A DNA stretch of 33,957 nucleotides, taken from contig JABHZQ010000009.1 in the NCBI GenBank assembly GCA_018656555.1, positions 1-33,957 on the forward strand. The letters are read 5' to 3'. Positions 14,744-33,452 of the stretch are shown one piece after another; within the stretch, counting starts at the first letter, position 1; every line of letters begins with the position of its first letter. The notes under the pieces are model-generated. The model searched no databases, was not told the DNA's origin, and worked only from the letters and a program-made list of their open reading frames with translations. The position numbers and the translations under genes are program-made. Source of the stretch: an archaeon (lineage in GTDB: Archaea; Nanobdellota; Nanobdellia; SCGC-AAA011-G17; GW2011-AR17).

Positions 14744-15166
14744 TTATGGTTGAACTCTGACTCTTTTACCACTAGAGGTATAGGCCATAAAAACTAAATC
14801 ACTCGGTGGATTAGGATGTAACTCTCTTAAATATTTCAAAGCTTCTCTAACTTCAAATAAAACATAAGATTGATGAACATCCAATAATCTAAAAGGAACT
14901 AAATATAAATCTCCCACCCTCTGGAAACTATCCCAAGCAGAATCCCTAACCTTAACCTCTCTAGGTAGCCATCTTGCCTTCCCTGTAAGATAATCTCTAA
15001 CCAAAGGATATAAAACCTTCTCATCTGTAAGTTTATAAGCAACAATCCTAAACCCATTCATTCCACCCTTCGGCTCAAATCTTTTATGATGTACCACAGG
15101 ATTAACTAGAATTTCCTCTAAGGTTGCACCCCCACTAACCAACCCAACCAACTTACTTTCTTTCAT
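14744..15166 (-). CDS. Unknown 140-residue protein upstream of tldD
   Basis: A 140-residue soluble protein that I do not recognise. It is mixed alpha/beta, rich in Val, Leu and Arg, with a Gly-rich start (GLVSGGATLEE), a central RWLPREVKVRD strand region and a C-terminal SSGKRVRVQP. There is no signal peptide, membrane helix or metal motif. ATG 15166 has a TATA-like atttataaag (15191-15200, other strand) about 29 nt upstream. It lies just before tldD on the same strand and could share transcription with it, but the short gap contains a tldD TATA box. Its arginine-leaning composition differs from the lysine-rich neighbours. Confidence 0.65.
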   Translation of the reverse strand: MKESKLVGLVSGGATLEEILVNPVVHHKRFEPKGGMNGFRIVAYKLTDEKVLYPLVRDYLTGKARWLPREVKVRDSAWDSFQRVGDLYLVPFRLLDVHQSYVLFEVREALKYLRELHPNPPSDLVFMAYTSSGKRVRVQP

Positions 15167-17907: not shown

Positions 17908-18396
17908 TCATTTTCTGGCAGTTTCTAGCCTAGTTGGATCATAATTAAGCATATTTCTCCCTAAATCAATAGTTAACTTCCTTTCACCACCAGTCCTAAA
18001 AAGCTCATTAACTATCTCTCTAGAAGGATAAACTCTAACAATTGTTCTTCTTTTATAAGGATCATCATCAACTTTAAAACCAGCCAATTCCTCATCACCA
18101 ATCACCTCATCAAAGAAAAGTTTACCAATAGACAAACCAACCACATGAACAATACCATTTGGCCCTCTTCTAGCCTCCAAATATGGACTTTCTGCAAAAC
18201 TAGGATACATCTCATCTCTAAGAGATCTAAAAAAAGCTTCATAATCCTCAACCCAACCCATACCTACTTCTGGTACAAACCAATACTCTCTAAATTGACC
18301 CCAAGCCCCATTCCTTCTTGGAAGAAAATTAACATCAAGCCCTCTAACCAAATCTGCTGTATTTCTCAATCTTGCAGTTAATTGGGGATGACTCAT
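17908..18396 (-). CDS. Unknown 162-residue protein, Arg-rich
   Basis: A soluble 162-residue protein that I do not recognise. It has 19 Arg but only 5 Lys, unlike its lysine-rich neighbours, and several Trp/Tyr/Phe in a central region (about 30-65, with REYWFVPEVGMGWVED). A Gly-Pro-Asn-Gly turn is followed by strand IVHVVGLSIGKLFF, then acidic GDEELAGFKVDDD. No signal peptide, membrane helix or obvious catalytic motif is seen. ATG 18396 has a TATA-like box (reverse complement of tataaaacta, 18421-18430) about 29 nt upstream. It lies between the S17e-Alba unit and the THUMP methyltransferase on the same strand. Confidence 0.65.
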   Translation of the reverse strand: MSHPQLTARLRNTADLVRGLDVNFLPRRNGAWGQFREYWFVPEVGMGWVEDYEAFFRSLRDEMYPSFAESPYLEARRGPNGIVHVVGLSIGKLFFDEVIGDEELAGFKVDDDPYKRRTIVRVYPSREIVNELFRTGGERKLTIDLGRNMLNYDPTRLETARK

Positions 18397-18427: not shown

Positions 18428-19486
18428 CTACCTTTTCTCTAGTATTAAAATCCTTCTTTTCAATTTAGAGGTAGGAGTTTCATATTCAAAACTAGTAACT
18501 TTAAATCCTGTTAAATCTAAATCTAATTCAAAATTTCGCCTAGTTCTAGTAAAAAATACTGGAACCACAATAACAGCTTTTTTACATCTAATACTTTTAA
18601 TTTCTTTCAAAACTGCATTATACATCGGTTCTAATTTCTTAATTGTTTTCTTAGCATCTTGTGGGGTAGGTAACTTCCTCAAAAAAGGACCCATAAATGG
18701 CTCTGAAACAACATAATCAACTTTCTTAACATAACTACTCATTCTAGTTGCATCCCCTAAAAACAACTTAAAAGAAGGCTTAACAGAATAACTCTTCCTT
18801 AACCAAGCAATATTATTTTTAGCAGATTTCAACATAGTTGCACTTTTGTCAATACCATAAACTTCAACTCCTAACAACATGGCCTCTTGTAAAATAGTCC
18901 CAATACCACAAAATGGATCTAACAATTTATCCTTTTTCTTAGCACCAGACAAATTTATCAAAATCTTAGCCAATCTTATTGAAATAGAATGCAACCTCTC
19001 TTGATCTGGTCTCTTCAAATCTCTAGTCTTATGATCATTAGGATTAAAAATAGCAATAGTCTTTCCAATATACTCATCAAAAACAACAATCTCCAAAACA
19101 TTCTGAGCCTCAGAAGGATTCAAATAAGTCTGTTTATGGTGAGACTTCTTCAACATAGCCTTCAATCCTTGAGACTTAAAATACTGTTTTAACTCCTCTT
19201 TCAAATCAGAAACATCATCTGAGGTATAATTAGAAATTGCATACTTCAACTTCCCCTTGCCACCCCTATACAACCCATCAAAATCCTCAATAACTCTAAC
19301 AATCTTCTGAGATCCACCAATTTCCTTCATAACCTTTTTACAATTCAAAGAATCAGGTAAATCTAAAACCACCCCTACATCAGATTTTTTAATAATCTTA
19401 TAACTAATACCTCTAGAAGTTGAATAACTCTCAAATTCAGCCAAACCTAATTGCGGATCTCTCCCTAAAATCAAAATGCATCTCAT
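18428..19486 (-). CDS. THUMP/Trm11-type tRNA guanosine methyltransferase
   Basis: A 352-residue SAM-dependent methyltransferase of the COG1041/Trm11/Trm-G10 group, expected to modify guanosine at tRNA position 10. The N-terminus (ILILGRDPQLGLAEF) and the region to about 150 match the NTD-THUMP RNA-binding half. The catalytic half has RPDQERLHSISIRLAK, then SAM motif I LLDPFCGIGTILQEA and motif VYGIDKS. Motif IV reads SEPFMGP instead of the common DPPYG, a variant I recall from archaeal relatives. The start overlaps the 3' end of the amidase gene by 50 nt. I kept this ATG because the first residues are the conserved family start. Confidence 0.88.
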   Translation of the reverse strand: MRCILILGRDPQLGLAEFESYSTSRGISYKIIKKSDVGVVLDLPDSLNCKKVMKEIGGSQKIVRVIEDFDGLYRGGKGKLKYAISNYTSDDVSDLKEELKQYFKSQGLKAMLKKSHHKQTYLNPSEAQNVLEIVVFDEYIGKTIAIFNPNDHKTRDLKRPDQERLHSISIRLAKILINLSGAKKKDKLLDPFCGIGTILQEAMLLGVEVYGIDKSATMLKSAKNNIAWLRKSYSVKPSFKLFLGDATRMSSYVKKVDYVVSEPFMGPFLRKLPTPQDAKKTIKKLEPMYNAVLKEIKSIRCKKAVIVVPVFFTRTRRNFELDLDLTGFKVTSFEYETPTSKLKRRILILEKR

Positions 19487-20237
19487 AATCCCTCAAATCT
19501 CTTCCGGGTTTATAAGACTTTTCTTCCCCAAATCTCTTCCTTACCTCATCAAGAACCCCTTCAATCCCTCCAGGACACAAAGTCTCACATTCTGGAACTA
19601 AAGTAACTCCTCTTTCTTGAGCAATCAAATAAGCCTGTTTATGACCAATCACTCTTTCTTTCTCAATAGATAAAAAATGCCTAGATACAAAACCAGTCAA
19701 CCAATACAAACTATCTTTTTGTTCAACAGTTGGCTCACTTCTTGTAAAATCACCAATTAAACAAATATTCAAAACTCCATAATTAGGAGACTCTCTTGGA
19801 TTAACTAATCTTCCATGTTCCTCAACCTGAGCACGACTCTCAAAACTAGCACCTACAGCAGCACCCATTACAAACCAAAATCTTCCCTCATAAATCATTC
19901 CATCTCTATCAATAACCCAATTATAAGCAATATCAGATTTATCATTATTCATATGTGCTTCTTGAATCTGTTGAACAGTTGCAATACTTGCCCCGGGTCC
20001 TGAATGATGAACAGCCAACCACTCTAACATATTAGTATCAAAACAACCCATCACTCCAAAAATATCAAGCAAAGAAAGATCAAAGTCATGAAAATGTGTA
20101 TACAAAACTGAATGTGGATCTGGATTAGGATCTCTAGCACCCCACTCTTCTCTTAAAATAATTCTTCTATCTTGAGAATAAGCTAACAAAGGCAAAGCAG
20201 CCACCAACCTAAAACTTTCTCTTCTAGAAAAATCCAT
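19437..20237 (-). CDS. N-acetylmuramoyl-L-alanine amidase / PGRP-like, exported
   Basis: A 266-residue Amidase_2/PGRP-fold protein. This zinc enzyme family cleaves the bond between N-acetylmuramic acid and L-Ala in peptidoglycan. The N-terminus has SRRESFR followed by a short hydrophobic stretch ending near residue 21, resembling a Tat-type or short signal peptide. The fold begins REEWGARDP. Zinc ligands are all present: His77 in AVHHSG, His199 in IGHKQ and Cys221 in TLCPGG. Tyr105 in IAYNWVIDRDG is also kept, and GRFWFVMGAAVG is the usual substrate-groove strand. It should thus be active. The composition is Arg-rich (23 Arg, 7 Lys), suggesting possible acquisition from elsewhere. Its 3' end overlaps the methyltransferase gene. 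Confidence 0.88.
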   Translation of the reverse strand: MDFSRRESFRLVAALPLLAYSQDRRIILREEWGARDPNPDPHSVLYTHFHDFDLSLLDIFGVMGCFDTNMLEWLAVHHSGPGASIATVQQIQEAHMNNDKSDIAYNWVIDRDGMIYEGRFWFVMGAAVGASFESRAQVEEHGRLVNPRESPNYGVLNICLIGDFTRSEPTVEQKDSLYWLTGFVSRHFLSIEKERVIGHKQAYLIAQERGVTLVPECETLCPGGIEGVLDEVRKRFGEEKSYKPGRDLRDYEMHFDFRERSAIRFG

Positions 20238-20288
20238 AATAATACTTTTTAAGAACTAATATATAAAATTAATTAAAAGAAAAAAAAA
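20238..20288 (-). promoter_or_regulatory. Terminator and TATA box between surface and amidase genes
   Basis: On the minus strand the surface-protein stop is followed by a T tract (complement of the A run at 20275-20288), a probable oligo-T terminator. A TATA-like aattttatata (about 20258-20268) lies roughly 26 nt before the amidase ATG at 20237. The amidase is therefore likely transcribed separately. Confidence 0.5.
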
Positions 20289-24476: not shown

Positions 24477-25388
24477 ATGACCCAGATAGTAATCACACAA
24501 GATCTAGGATTAGATCCTAAAGATATTGAAAAGTTAAAGAAACTTGGAGAATTAACAATTTATGAAAAAGTATCAAAAACACCAGATGAATGGCTAAAAA
24601 GATGTAAAAATGCGGATATTATCTGCACAGGTAAGTTTGGATTAAAAACCGAAAAAACTTACAAACTAAAAAATGTATTTCTTGTTTTACCTTTTGTAGG
24701 AACTGGATTTTTAGACAAGCAAAAATTAAAAGAAAATAACATAACTGTATCTTACTGTCCAGGATGCAATACAGATGCTGTTTCTGAATGGATTATTGGA
24801 ATGATAATAAATCTACTTAGAGATTTACCAGAAACATTGAAAAACAAACCCTTAACAAAAAGAGCTTTCCCTAAAGAGACACTTAGTCTAACAAATAAAA
24901 ATATAACTATACTTGGAAAAGGAAATATTGGGAATAGAGTAGGTAAAATTTGTAAAGCATTTGGTATGAAAGTTAATTATTTTTCTCGTAATAGTAAGTT
25001 AATAGAATCAGTTAAAACTGCAGACATTATTGTAAATACATTAAGTAAAAATCCTTCTTCAGAAAATCTCCTAGGTACAAAGTTTTTTGACTCTCTAAAA
25101 AAGGGCAGTTTTTTCCTTTCTGTTACAAGTCCTTCTATCTTTGACACAGATGCTATGATAAAAGCTCTCAATGAATGTAGATTAGAAAAAGTAGCTATTG
25201 ATGCAGGTGGAATTCAAGTAGGAAATATAAATGATCCATATTATCAAAAAATGCTAGCTCATCCAAAAATACTGTTAACTCCCCATATTGCATTTAACAC
25301 AGATGTTACAAATGAAGTTAGTAGCAAAATGATAGTAAAAAACATAGAAGCATGGCTAAACAAAAAACCAATTAATCTTATAGAATAG
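24477..25388 (+). CDS. D-2-hydroxyacid dehydrogenase-like protein, altered active site
   Basis: A 303-residue protein of the D-isomer-specific 2-hydroxyacid dehydrogenase fold (SerA, glyoxylate reductase family). The NAD(P) motif GKGNIG is at 147-152, with Ser170-Arg171 in place of the usual acidic residue after the second strand, suggesting NADP(H) preference. Of the catalytic triad only His270 (LLTPHIA) remains. The Arg normally in the xxRGxxVD segment aligns with Ser218 (SVTSPSIFD), and the Glu normally near TEP aligns with Gln247. The known chemistry is therefore doubtful. TATA-like tttttatatc at 24447-24456 lies about 26 nt before the ATG. The gene end overlaps the convergent APH-like gene by 11 nt. 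Confidence 0.85.
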   Translation: MTQIVITQDLGLDPKDIEKLKKLGELTIYEKVSKTPDEWLKRCKNADIICTGKFGLKTEKTYKLKNVFLVLPFVGTGFLDKQKLKENNITVSYCPGCNTDAVSEWIIGMIINLLRDLPETLKNKPLTKRAFPKETLSLTNKNITILGKGNIGNRVGKICKAFGMKVNYFSRNSKLIESVKTADIIVNTLSKNPSSENLLGTKFFDSLKKGSFFLSVTSPSIFDTDAMIKALNECRLEKVAIDAGGIQVGNINDPYYQKMLAHPKILLTPHIAFNTDVTNEVSSKMIVKNIEAWLNKKPINLIE

Positions 25389-27063
25389 AACCAATTCCAC
25401 TACTCTTCAACTCTTCTCTTAACCCTTCCCTCAATCTTCTAACACTTACAGCCTGTCTACGCATAGACAATCTAGGCATATAAGTCTCAGCCAACAACAA
25501 AGACTCCTCAGCATGATCTAACTGAGTCAAAACCTCTTCCTTACCTTTACTAACCATCTTTCTTGCAGCCCACAAATGCAACACAAACCTTCTAAGGTTA
25601 TATGCAACAAAAAATCTAACATATTCTCTTTCATCAACAATCTCTTGTCTATCTTTTACAATCTCTCTTGCCTCATTAACCCAATTTGGATTTTCAAAAA
25701 ACTCTCCTCTAGCTAAAGCACTAATAGCAAAATAATCTTGTAAAATAGCACTCCTTCTATCATTTGAAAATTTAAATCTATCCTCTTCAATCTGTCTAAT
25801 AACATCATCCTGACAATAACCTAAACAAGTTAATTCAAAATCTAACATAGAAAACCTTTTTCCATTAAACTTAACATTCTTTGAATGTAAACTTCCATGA
25901 ATTACTCCCTCATAACTCCCTCTCCAAATTTTTAATAACTTAACTAAAGGTTTAGCTAATCTGTTTAAATTATCTCCCCTATATCTTAAAGACTTCAAAA
26001 TCATTTCCATTTCATCTTTAAATTTATATCTTTCCACTCCATGTAAACCCTTAGCATAAGCAAAATTATGAAAAAAGGGTAACAACCGAACAAATTGATG
26101 AGTTAAATCCAAACTACCTATCTCTAAAAGAGTTCTACCTTCAACTCGACCCATAGCTATTATACTAGTTCTTTGATCTTTTCCATCAAAACAATAAACT
26201 GGTAAAGGAAAATCCAAAAATCCACTTGGAAATGTTTCTCTCAATCCTTTAGCAACCTGATAATCCCTATACAATCTACTAGAAGGGGAAGAATCCACCC
26301 ACAAACCAAATTCATCCTCTCCAAAAAAAGGATCTGCTGTTTTTGTAACAAACTTCCTATTTATTCTTCCTTCTAAATCAGAAATAACCTCCACCAAGTA
26401 TCTGTCTCTTTCAGCAAACACAGTAACCTTATCATTACCCTCTTCCAATCTATTTGTTAAAAGAGTTGAAGATTGTGGAATACCCACCTTAACAGATTCA
26501 TACATCCAATCTAGTTTTCCTGATCTTTTACTGATATCAAAAATCTTATCAGCTAAACTTTCAATAACCACTTCATACAAACCTTGTGGATCCTCTCCTT
26601 CCAACCAACCATCATCCCCACCGTTATCTAAATAAGATCTCAAATTTCTCAAAAAAAACATCTCTTCAAACAAACTTCCCCCATTAAAACCTAAATAAAT
26701 TCTCAAAAAAGCATTTTGATAGTCCAAAAAACTAGAAAAATCAATATTTTCAAGTACAGTATTAAATGCAAAACCATATCTAACCACTGGCAACATTTCA
26801 ACAAACTCTTTCAAAAGAGAATAATCTCTTTTTTCAACCGGCATCCAATCCAACAACCCATCATCCGGTCTTAATTCCATGTCCATATCACTATACAACT
26901 CTTTAAAGTCAATTCCTCTCTCTTCAAACACTCGATCCCTCTCAATTCCCCAATCATCATATTCTTTCAACAACCTAAAATACTCTGGTTGATCTTGAAC
27001 AGAAAATAATCTAACTCGCCATTCTAATTCTCTAGAAACAACATCATAATTCTCCCATAACAT
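25378..27063 (-). CDS. APH-fold phosphotransferase-like protein, Asp lost
   Basis: A 561-residue protein whose C-terminal half resembles the aminoglycoside/choline phosphotransferase kinase-like fold. The Brenner-type motif reads HGSLHSKN at 389-396, with Ser391 where the catalytic Asp is expected (codon AGT, 25893-25891). The metal-binding Asp of the DF motif is kept as Asp408 (MLDFE). N-terminal residues 1-200 are Asp/Glu- and aromatic-rich with no motif that I recognise. Arg exceeds Lys, unlike most neighbours. It is possibly a pseudokinase or small-molecule binder. A TATA-like box (complement of aattatttaa, 27081-27090) precedes ATG 27063. Confidence 0.75.
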   Translation of the reverse strand: MLWENYDVVSRELEWRVRLFSVQDQPEYFRLLKEYDDWGIERDRVFEERGIDFKELYSDMDMELRPDDGLLDWMPVEKRDYSLLKEFVEMLPVVRYGFAFNTVLENIDFSSFLDYQNAFLRIYLGFNGGSLFEEMFFLRNLRSYLDNGGDDGWLEGEDPQGLYEVVIESLADKIFDISKRSGKLDWMYESVKVGIPQSSTLLTNRLEEGNDKVTVFAERDRYLVEVISDLEGRINRKFVTKTADPFFGEDEFGLWVDSSPSSRLYRDYQVAKGLRETFPSGFLDFPLPVYCFDGKDQRTSIIAMGRVEGRTLLEIGSLDLTHQFVRLLPFFHNFAYAKGLHGVERYKFKDEMEMILKSLRYRGDNLNRLAKPLVKLLKIWRGSYEGVIHGSLHSKNVKFNGKRFSMLDFELTCLGYCQDDVIRQIEEDRFKFSNDRRSAILQDYFAISALARGEFFENPNWVNEAREIVKDRQEIVDEREYVRFFVAYNLRRFVLHLWAARKMVSKGKEEVLTQLDHAEESLLLAETYMPRLSMRRQAVSVRRLREGLREELKSSGIGSIL

Positions 27064-32315: not shown

Positions 32316-33452
32316 TTACCCCTTATTGGGGAAATTCAACCAACCACCTTGAGAATATAAGCCATTACTAACTAAACTAATACGTGATTTATCAGTCACT
32401 TGACCAATTACTTGTCCTTCAATATCTTCATATCTCTCCAAGACTTGCATTACTCCTAAAGGATTAGGAGTTATCACAATAAAACCTTGTCCCATATTCC
32501 AAGTTTGATAAGCCATTTTATCTGAAACATCTCCTTCTTGTTGAAAATAAGACATAGCTCTAGCTGGATCAAATAAATTATCCATTGTTGCACCCAATCC
32601 AGGTCCCCCAAGTACTCTTTGTAACTTACCAACTAATCCTCCACCAGTAACATGTACAAAACCATGAACATCGATTTCTCCTTCTTCTTCAAACCTACCA
32701 CACATATCCAAAGTAGCTCTTGTATAAATTTTTGAAGGAGTCAATACTCTCTCTCCTAAAGAAACACCTTCTAGATTAACATTATGCCAATCATCTCCAT
32801 GAACATCAGTAGCTATTTTCCTAACTAAAGATAAACCATTAGATCTAAAACCCCCTTCTTTCAATCCAACCAAATAATCTCCAGGTTGTATCTCTCTTCC
32901 AGTAAACAGCCTATTTACATCAGCAACCCATAGAGCAGCTGCAGCCCAATTAGCATTAAAAGGACCATACCCACCAACCCTCATTCCAATTTCAGCAGTC
33001 TCTCCATCTATAACTGCAACTTGAGCAAGATCAGCAGCTTCTACATATCCTCTTGCTAATTGTTTTACATGTTCAGCAAAAGGTTCACCTACCTCATCCT
33101 TAAGTCTATTAACATCTAAAACAGAACCAACAGCAAAAGGTTCAGCACCCAGTACAATAGCGTCCTCTACAGCCATTGCAATTAAATCATGAGCAATTGT
33201 AGTATAATCTCCAATCCTTTCTGCCACTTCAATTTTAGTTCCAATACCATCCAAAGCCATTCCTATCCTTGTACCTAATGGTAAATTAGAAACCTCAAAA
33301 CCTCTAGCACCAGAAAAAGAATCTTTTGCAACTTGAATCTCACCAAATCTTCCAGCTCTATTTTGCCAAGTTAACTTAGAAGCAGCATACAACATTTTAG
33401 AAACTTCATCACCTAGTGCAACATCCACTCCAGCATCATCATAGTCTGTCAT
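32316..33452 (-). CDS. purM: Phosphoribosylformylglycinamidine cyclo-ligase (AIR synthetase)
   Basis: A 378-residue PurM-family ATP-dependent enzyme closing the imidazole ring in de novo purine synthesis (FGAM to AIR). Family features: DYDDAGVDVALGDE at the start, FGEI, GTKIEVAERIGDYTTIAHDLIAM, then VEDAIVLGAEP, GGFRSNGLSLVR, HVTGGGLVGKLQRV and WNMGQGFIV near the end. The length suits PurM and is somewhat longer than E. coli PurM. Its start is two bases after the PCNA stop, so the two are almost surely one transcript. No other pur gene is in the window. Arg exceeds Lys (19 to 13), unlike most neighbours. PurM relatives (ThiL, HypE, SelD) were considered but the C-terminal NMG motif fits PurM. 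Confidence 0.9.
   Translation of the reverse strand: MTDYDDAGVDVALGDEVSKMLYAASKLTWQNRAGRFGEIQVAKDSFSGARGFEVSNLPLGTRIGMALDGIGTKIEVAERIGDYTTIAHDLIAMAVEDAIVLGAEPFAVGSVLDVNRLKDEVGEPFAEHVKQLARGYVEAADLAQVAVIDGETAEIGMRVGGYGPFNANWAAAALWVADVNRLFTGREIQPGDYLVGLKEGGFRSNGLSLVRKIATDVHGDDWHNVNLEGVSLGERVLTPSKIYTRATLDMCGRFEEEGEIDVHGFVHVTGGGLVGKLQRVLGGPGLGATMDNLFDPARAMSYFQQEGDVSDKMAYQTWNMGQGFIVITPNPLGVMQVLERYEDIEGQVIGQVTDKSRISLVSNGLYSQGGWLNFPNKG

Follow-up and report, generated by a model that had tools for sequence, protein, structure and literature searches.

A PGRP-type zinc amidase gene of likely bacterial or phage origin in an archaeon with no sign of murein synthesis

Some archaea are known to possess peptidoglycan hydrolases. 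Modular enzymes were found in about 5% of archaea and are prominent in Nanoarchaeota (Strock et al. 2025, PMC12352652); as the title of that paper states, archaeal hydrolases of this kind kill bacteria. In Woesearchaeota, murein transglycosylases have been described (Vigneron et al. 2022, PMC9723730). The amidase analyzed here is a further case, non-modular and of the PGRP type. Like the hydrolases of Strock et al., it is archaeal, belongs to an organism that apparently has no murein of its own and shows a patchy distribution. However, a wall-binding domain was required for that set, and about one third of its members carry Sec or Tat signals (PMC12352652). A Pfam search of our protein recognized Amidase_2 alone and no wall-binding domain. 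The combination of catalytic and wall-binding domain that defines the modular hydrolases (PMC12352652) is therefore missing, and the 2025 screen would not have detected this amidase.

Phage endolysins of PHROG 1493 and the PGRP-type amidases of Actinobacteria and Bacteroidota share with the archaeal protein the zinc ligands, the Tyr, the Thr, the RxxWGAR opening and a match over the whole domain. The identity is about 26-39%, and the archaeal amidase differs from them in three loop inserts, in the apparent loss of the GAH-motif His and in having no wall-binding domain. The fold, the zinc site and the Thr at the position of the T7 Lys recur in animal amidase PGRPs (PGRP-LB; PMC4573324), but these are remote from the archaeal amidase, and no animal link is implied. 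T7 lysozyme and the T7-like amidases of the order (L008, L009, L010 and L013) also share the zinc site and fold, but at the position of the Thr they carry Lys, and the PGRP opening segment is missing from them.

Active site, fold and groove

The gene lies on the minus strand at 19437..20237 of the window, i.e., the whole stretch of 33,957 nucleotides that was analyzed. As the initial annotation proposed, it is a real open reading frame, and its 266 codons specify a zinc amidase of the PGRP/T7-lysozyme type (Amidase_2). The protein matches Pfam Amidase_2 (PF01510) over residues 72-201 (5e-12; 46.7 bits compared to a curated cut-off of 26) and the PHROG 1493 endolysins over residues 26-240 (2.8e-15). 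The three zinc ligands are His77 (20007..20009), His199 (19641..19643) and Cys221 (19575..19577), which align with H17, H122 and C130 of T7 lysozyme, and the catalytic tyrosine is Tyr105 (19923..19925; T7 Y46), all encoded on the minus strand. Both the numbering and the retention of these residues had been given correctly. None of the four varied when the protein was aligned with T7 gp3.5 and endolysins or with 61 relatives from phages and bacteria, and they were also invariant in the archaeal relatives compared. The corresponding residues make up the catalytic zinc site in T7 lysozyme, PGRP-LB and the Ts2631 endolysin (PMC8124813, PMC4573324).

Two features characteristic of the PGRP subtype are present, namely the N-terminal RxxWGAR segment and a Thr in front of the CPG motif. 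The PGRP-specific opening segment RRIILREEWGAR (residues 24-35; 20133..20168, minus strand) was unique among the class amidases sampled. In AmpD, Asp replaces Cys as the third zinc ligand; the archaeal protein has Cys221 there and does not belong to this subtype. Nor does it have the Lys typical of T7-like enzymes (T7 K128), as this position is occupied by Thr219 (19581..19583, minus strand), a difference between PGRPs and T7-like enzymes described previously (PMC4573324). On these sequence features, the domain is classified as a PGRP-subtype Amidase_2, whose nearest counterparts are phage endolysins and bacterial PGRPs. The amidase had no match in a library of defence systems.

An AlphaFold model based on 62 sequences had a core pLDDT of about 85-95, and the unsure parts were the two ends, residues 1-14 (pLDDT below 50) and 250-266. 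The best PDB matches of the model were PGRPs, PGRP-LB and amidase endolysins, followed by T7 lysozyme and AmpD. Compared to PGRPs, the protein has three loop inserts around the groove. In the alignment with 61 relatives, positions that hardly vary among PGRPs are changed in the archaeal protein (W100 to Lys, G104 to Ala and G157 to Asn, residues read off the sequence). The column of the GAH-motif His, 90% conserved in this alignment, contains Ala127; a second alignment places His141 there, past a long insert. Given these departures and the three inserts, an altered murein activity is possible, and the substrate of the amidase may have changed.

Genomic setting and origin

The 3' end of the amidase gene overlaps by 50 bases (19437..19486, minus strand) with the start of a gene for a TIGR01177/Trm14-like RNA methyltransferase (18428..19486, minus strand), and the overlap codes for a disordered tail, residues 251-266. 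The methyltransferase gene is the first of a methyltransferase-Alba-KefB block that is kept across the order. A TTTATA box (20262..20267, minus strand) is located at -30 from the amidase ATG and is found in the same way at other genes of the window, suggesting that the amidase has its own leaderless promoter. A scan for bacterial-type promoters and terminators gave nothing exceeding chance. The archaeal setting assumed at the outset is borne out by neighbours in the window encoding an archaeal lysyl-tRNA synthetase (LysRS), Alba, the sliding clamp PCNA and an XPD/rad3-type helicase, and a PACE-CTERM S-layer-like protein adjoining the amidase region suggests a Pacearchaeota-like DPANN lineage. 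The genome (1.08 Mb, 97.7% complete), that of a small archaeon of the symbiont type, contains one Amidase_2 gene in total. Between the methyltransferase and Alba genes, we also observed an Arg-rich (11.7%) orphan open reading frame (17908-18396) with its own TATA box; it matched no family, and nothing similar was found at that spot in relatives.

The initial annotation took the Arg-rich composition of the amidase as a sign of acquisition. The composition is real (8.6% Arg, 2.6% Lys), but it is weak evidence for acquisition, since R/(R+K) is at least 0.5 in about 19% of 139 sampled genes (about 137 kb of genome stretches plus the window), among which the amidase ranks fourth, and since its codon use is native: 22 of 23 Arg codons are AGA/AGG, the genome's own, and GC3 is 0.22, like the rest. 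Arg-rich, Lys-poor and slightly GC-richer genes with native codons thus form a class comprising about one fifth of the sampled genes. Examples are found at 14744-15166, 25378-27063 and 32316-33452 of the window and at 7470-18460 of L233, and several cluster near one end of contig C7.

Acquisition itself is backed by other evidence. The best pairwise scores were obtained with phage endolysins (71 bits), followed by bacteria (64) and other DPANN amidases (50). In the tree, a 97/88 branch puts the amidase with the bacterial and phage enzymes, where it occupies a basal position and has a long branch of its own. The phylogeny suggested by the initial annotation therefore favours bacterial and phage relatives, but a grouping with the archaeal T7-like amidases survives the AU test (p 0.063). 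Shared descent with the other amidases of the order is disfavoured by the opening segment, the pairwise scores and the tree, albeit not formally rejected. Relatives keep the methyltransferase-Alba-KefB block, and the amidase is missing from the syntenic place, which supports acquisition. Based on scores, tree and synteny, it is likely that this lineage acquired the gene, with bacteria or one of their viruses as the source. L073, the nearest partner in the large tree, was set aside as a case of long-branch joining.

Single-sequence scans of the genome and viral collections revealed no relative, and alignment-based scans retrieved distant ones; none of the searches yielded a close relative. When 378 genomes of the class were scanned with a profile of relatives, 19 had some such domain; only the window's own match spans the opening segment (profile positions 4-168), and all others begin at position 23 or later. 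Within the order, Amidase_2 genes are scattered over 13 of 103 genomes in several distinct forms. Many of the other class amidases are short proteins that start straight at the domain. Read from their sequences, three proteins of the order (L005, L012, L015) appear to fuse a lysozyme/transglycosylase-like segment with the Amidase_2 domain. Six DPANN amidase-like proteins (L243, L245, L246, L247, L248, L251) have a long insert ahead of the CPG motif and may represent a separate family; in most of them, the second His is also shifted (SHTxGQ or a similar motif).

Substrate and place of action

The genome has a single match to a Mur-ligase domain (Mur_ligase_M), and its sequence signature points to a FolC-like enzyme. 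Own murein synthesis is thus unlikely, in agreement with the earlier view of an archaeon without murein, and in a genome with no murein ligases, the substrate of the amidase would be foreign. We consider it probable that the protein is an acquired PGRP-subtype zinc N-acetylmuramoyl-L-alanine amidase acting on foreign bacterial murein, with external and cytosolic action taken together. A bacterial or phage gene would have been acquired and have come to lie upstream of the conserved archaeal block. Two His and one Cys would bind Zn2+, and Tyr105 together with a zinc-bound water would cut the MurNAc-L-Ala bond of bacterial peptidoglycan. The enzyme could act on the walls of bacteria that live nearby or serve as host or prey, or on fragments of such walls. 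It would do so either outside the cell, exported by a weak Sec-type pathway or some other one, or in the cytosol on fragments that have been taken up.

The protein had been described as starting with a twin-arginine hydrophobic segment and as looking exported. The N-terminal 20 residues MDFSRRESFRLVAALPLLAY (20178..20237, minus strand) indeed form a twin-arginine-like segment, but a degenerate one: SRR at residues 4-6 is followed by E-S-F and not by x-F-L, and the hydrophobic stretch is short (about 10 residues). The best 15-residue Kyte-Doolittle mean is 1.01, which is within the range of cytosolic neighbours (up to 1.47); Tat-type starts of homologues reach 1.5-2.0 and clear Sec-type starts in the window 2.8. 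The search for tatA and tatC suggested at that time found neither TatA nor TatC in the organism's own genome (97.7% complete). TatC scored above the cut-off in one of 103 genomes of the order and in none of the 19 amidase-bearing genomes tested, while the searches were positive in Haloferax and other controls. Tat export is therefore unsupported and was rejected, and the claim of export could not be confirmed; Sec export by the N-terminal segment is possible. Delivery by a contractile injection system was rejected, as no sheath gene was found. In another genome (G460; 83% complete), in which TatC was not found, we observed an amidase (L241, 1489-2217) with a clear Tat-type signal, TRRNFLTTALTAGG.

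The preferred reading, an amidase on foreign murein, spans both places of action, and two alternatives that split this question overlap with it. According to one, the enzyme is secreted by Tat and attacks whole bacteria as an antibacterial or nutrient-releasing factor. The SRR followed by a hydrophobic stretch, Tat-type homologues in Streptomyces and Chloroflexota (L021, L205, L224) and the killing of bacteria by archaeal hydrolases with Tat signals (PMC12352652) agree with this, but the missing TatA and TatC, the near-complete lack of TatC in the order, the unremarkable hydropathy and the lack of a wall-binding domain and of a contractile sheath gene make it unlikely. The other alternative is a cytosolic scavenger, which would cleave or disarm imported muropeptides with no need for export. 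This variant is a serious possibility, although we would not expect it to be the correct one: no convincing export signal is present and many class amidases are short and start at the domain, but most relatives of the PGRP type are phage lysins or have signal-like starts, and no importer or partner gene was recognized within the window.

Two further explanations question the activity on murein itself. The zinc amidase fold could have been turned to a non-murein substrate or into a binding protein, as the apparent loss of the GAH-motif His, the three groove-loop inserts and the long tree branch might indicate. We regard this as improbable, however, because the full zinc site and the Tyr are retained, whereas non-catalytic PGRPs are without bound zinc (PMC8124813). 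It is very unlikely that the gene was left behind by a provirus, as a former lysis gene, or was captured recently and has no function. The top matches are viral endolysins and the C-terminal tail extends 50 bases into the next gene, but the genes around it are either conserved or of the archaeal housekeeping kind; none was recognized as viral, and five unassigned ones that were scanned against PHROG gave no viral match. A provirus remnant was rejected on these grounds. Furthermore, a settled gene is indicated by the uninterrupted frame, the native codons and the TATA box. We give little credence to the more far-reaching idea that, in this wall-less, Tat-less DPANN archaeon, the groove has been remodelled for something other than ordinary murein or an undescribed export route leads to bacterial walls. 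Such a route is hinted at by the G460 amidase, with its Tat-type signal in a genome where TatC was not found.

The amidase adds a non-modular PGRP-type example to the archaeal peptidoglycan hydrolases, in an order whose Amidase_2 genes take several forms. It raises the question of how such enzymes would leave the cells of Tat-less DPANN archaea, or whether they serve inside them.
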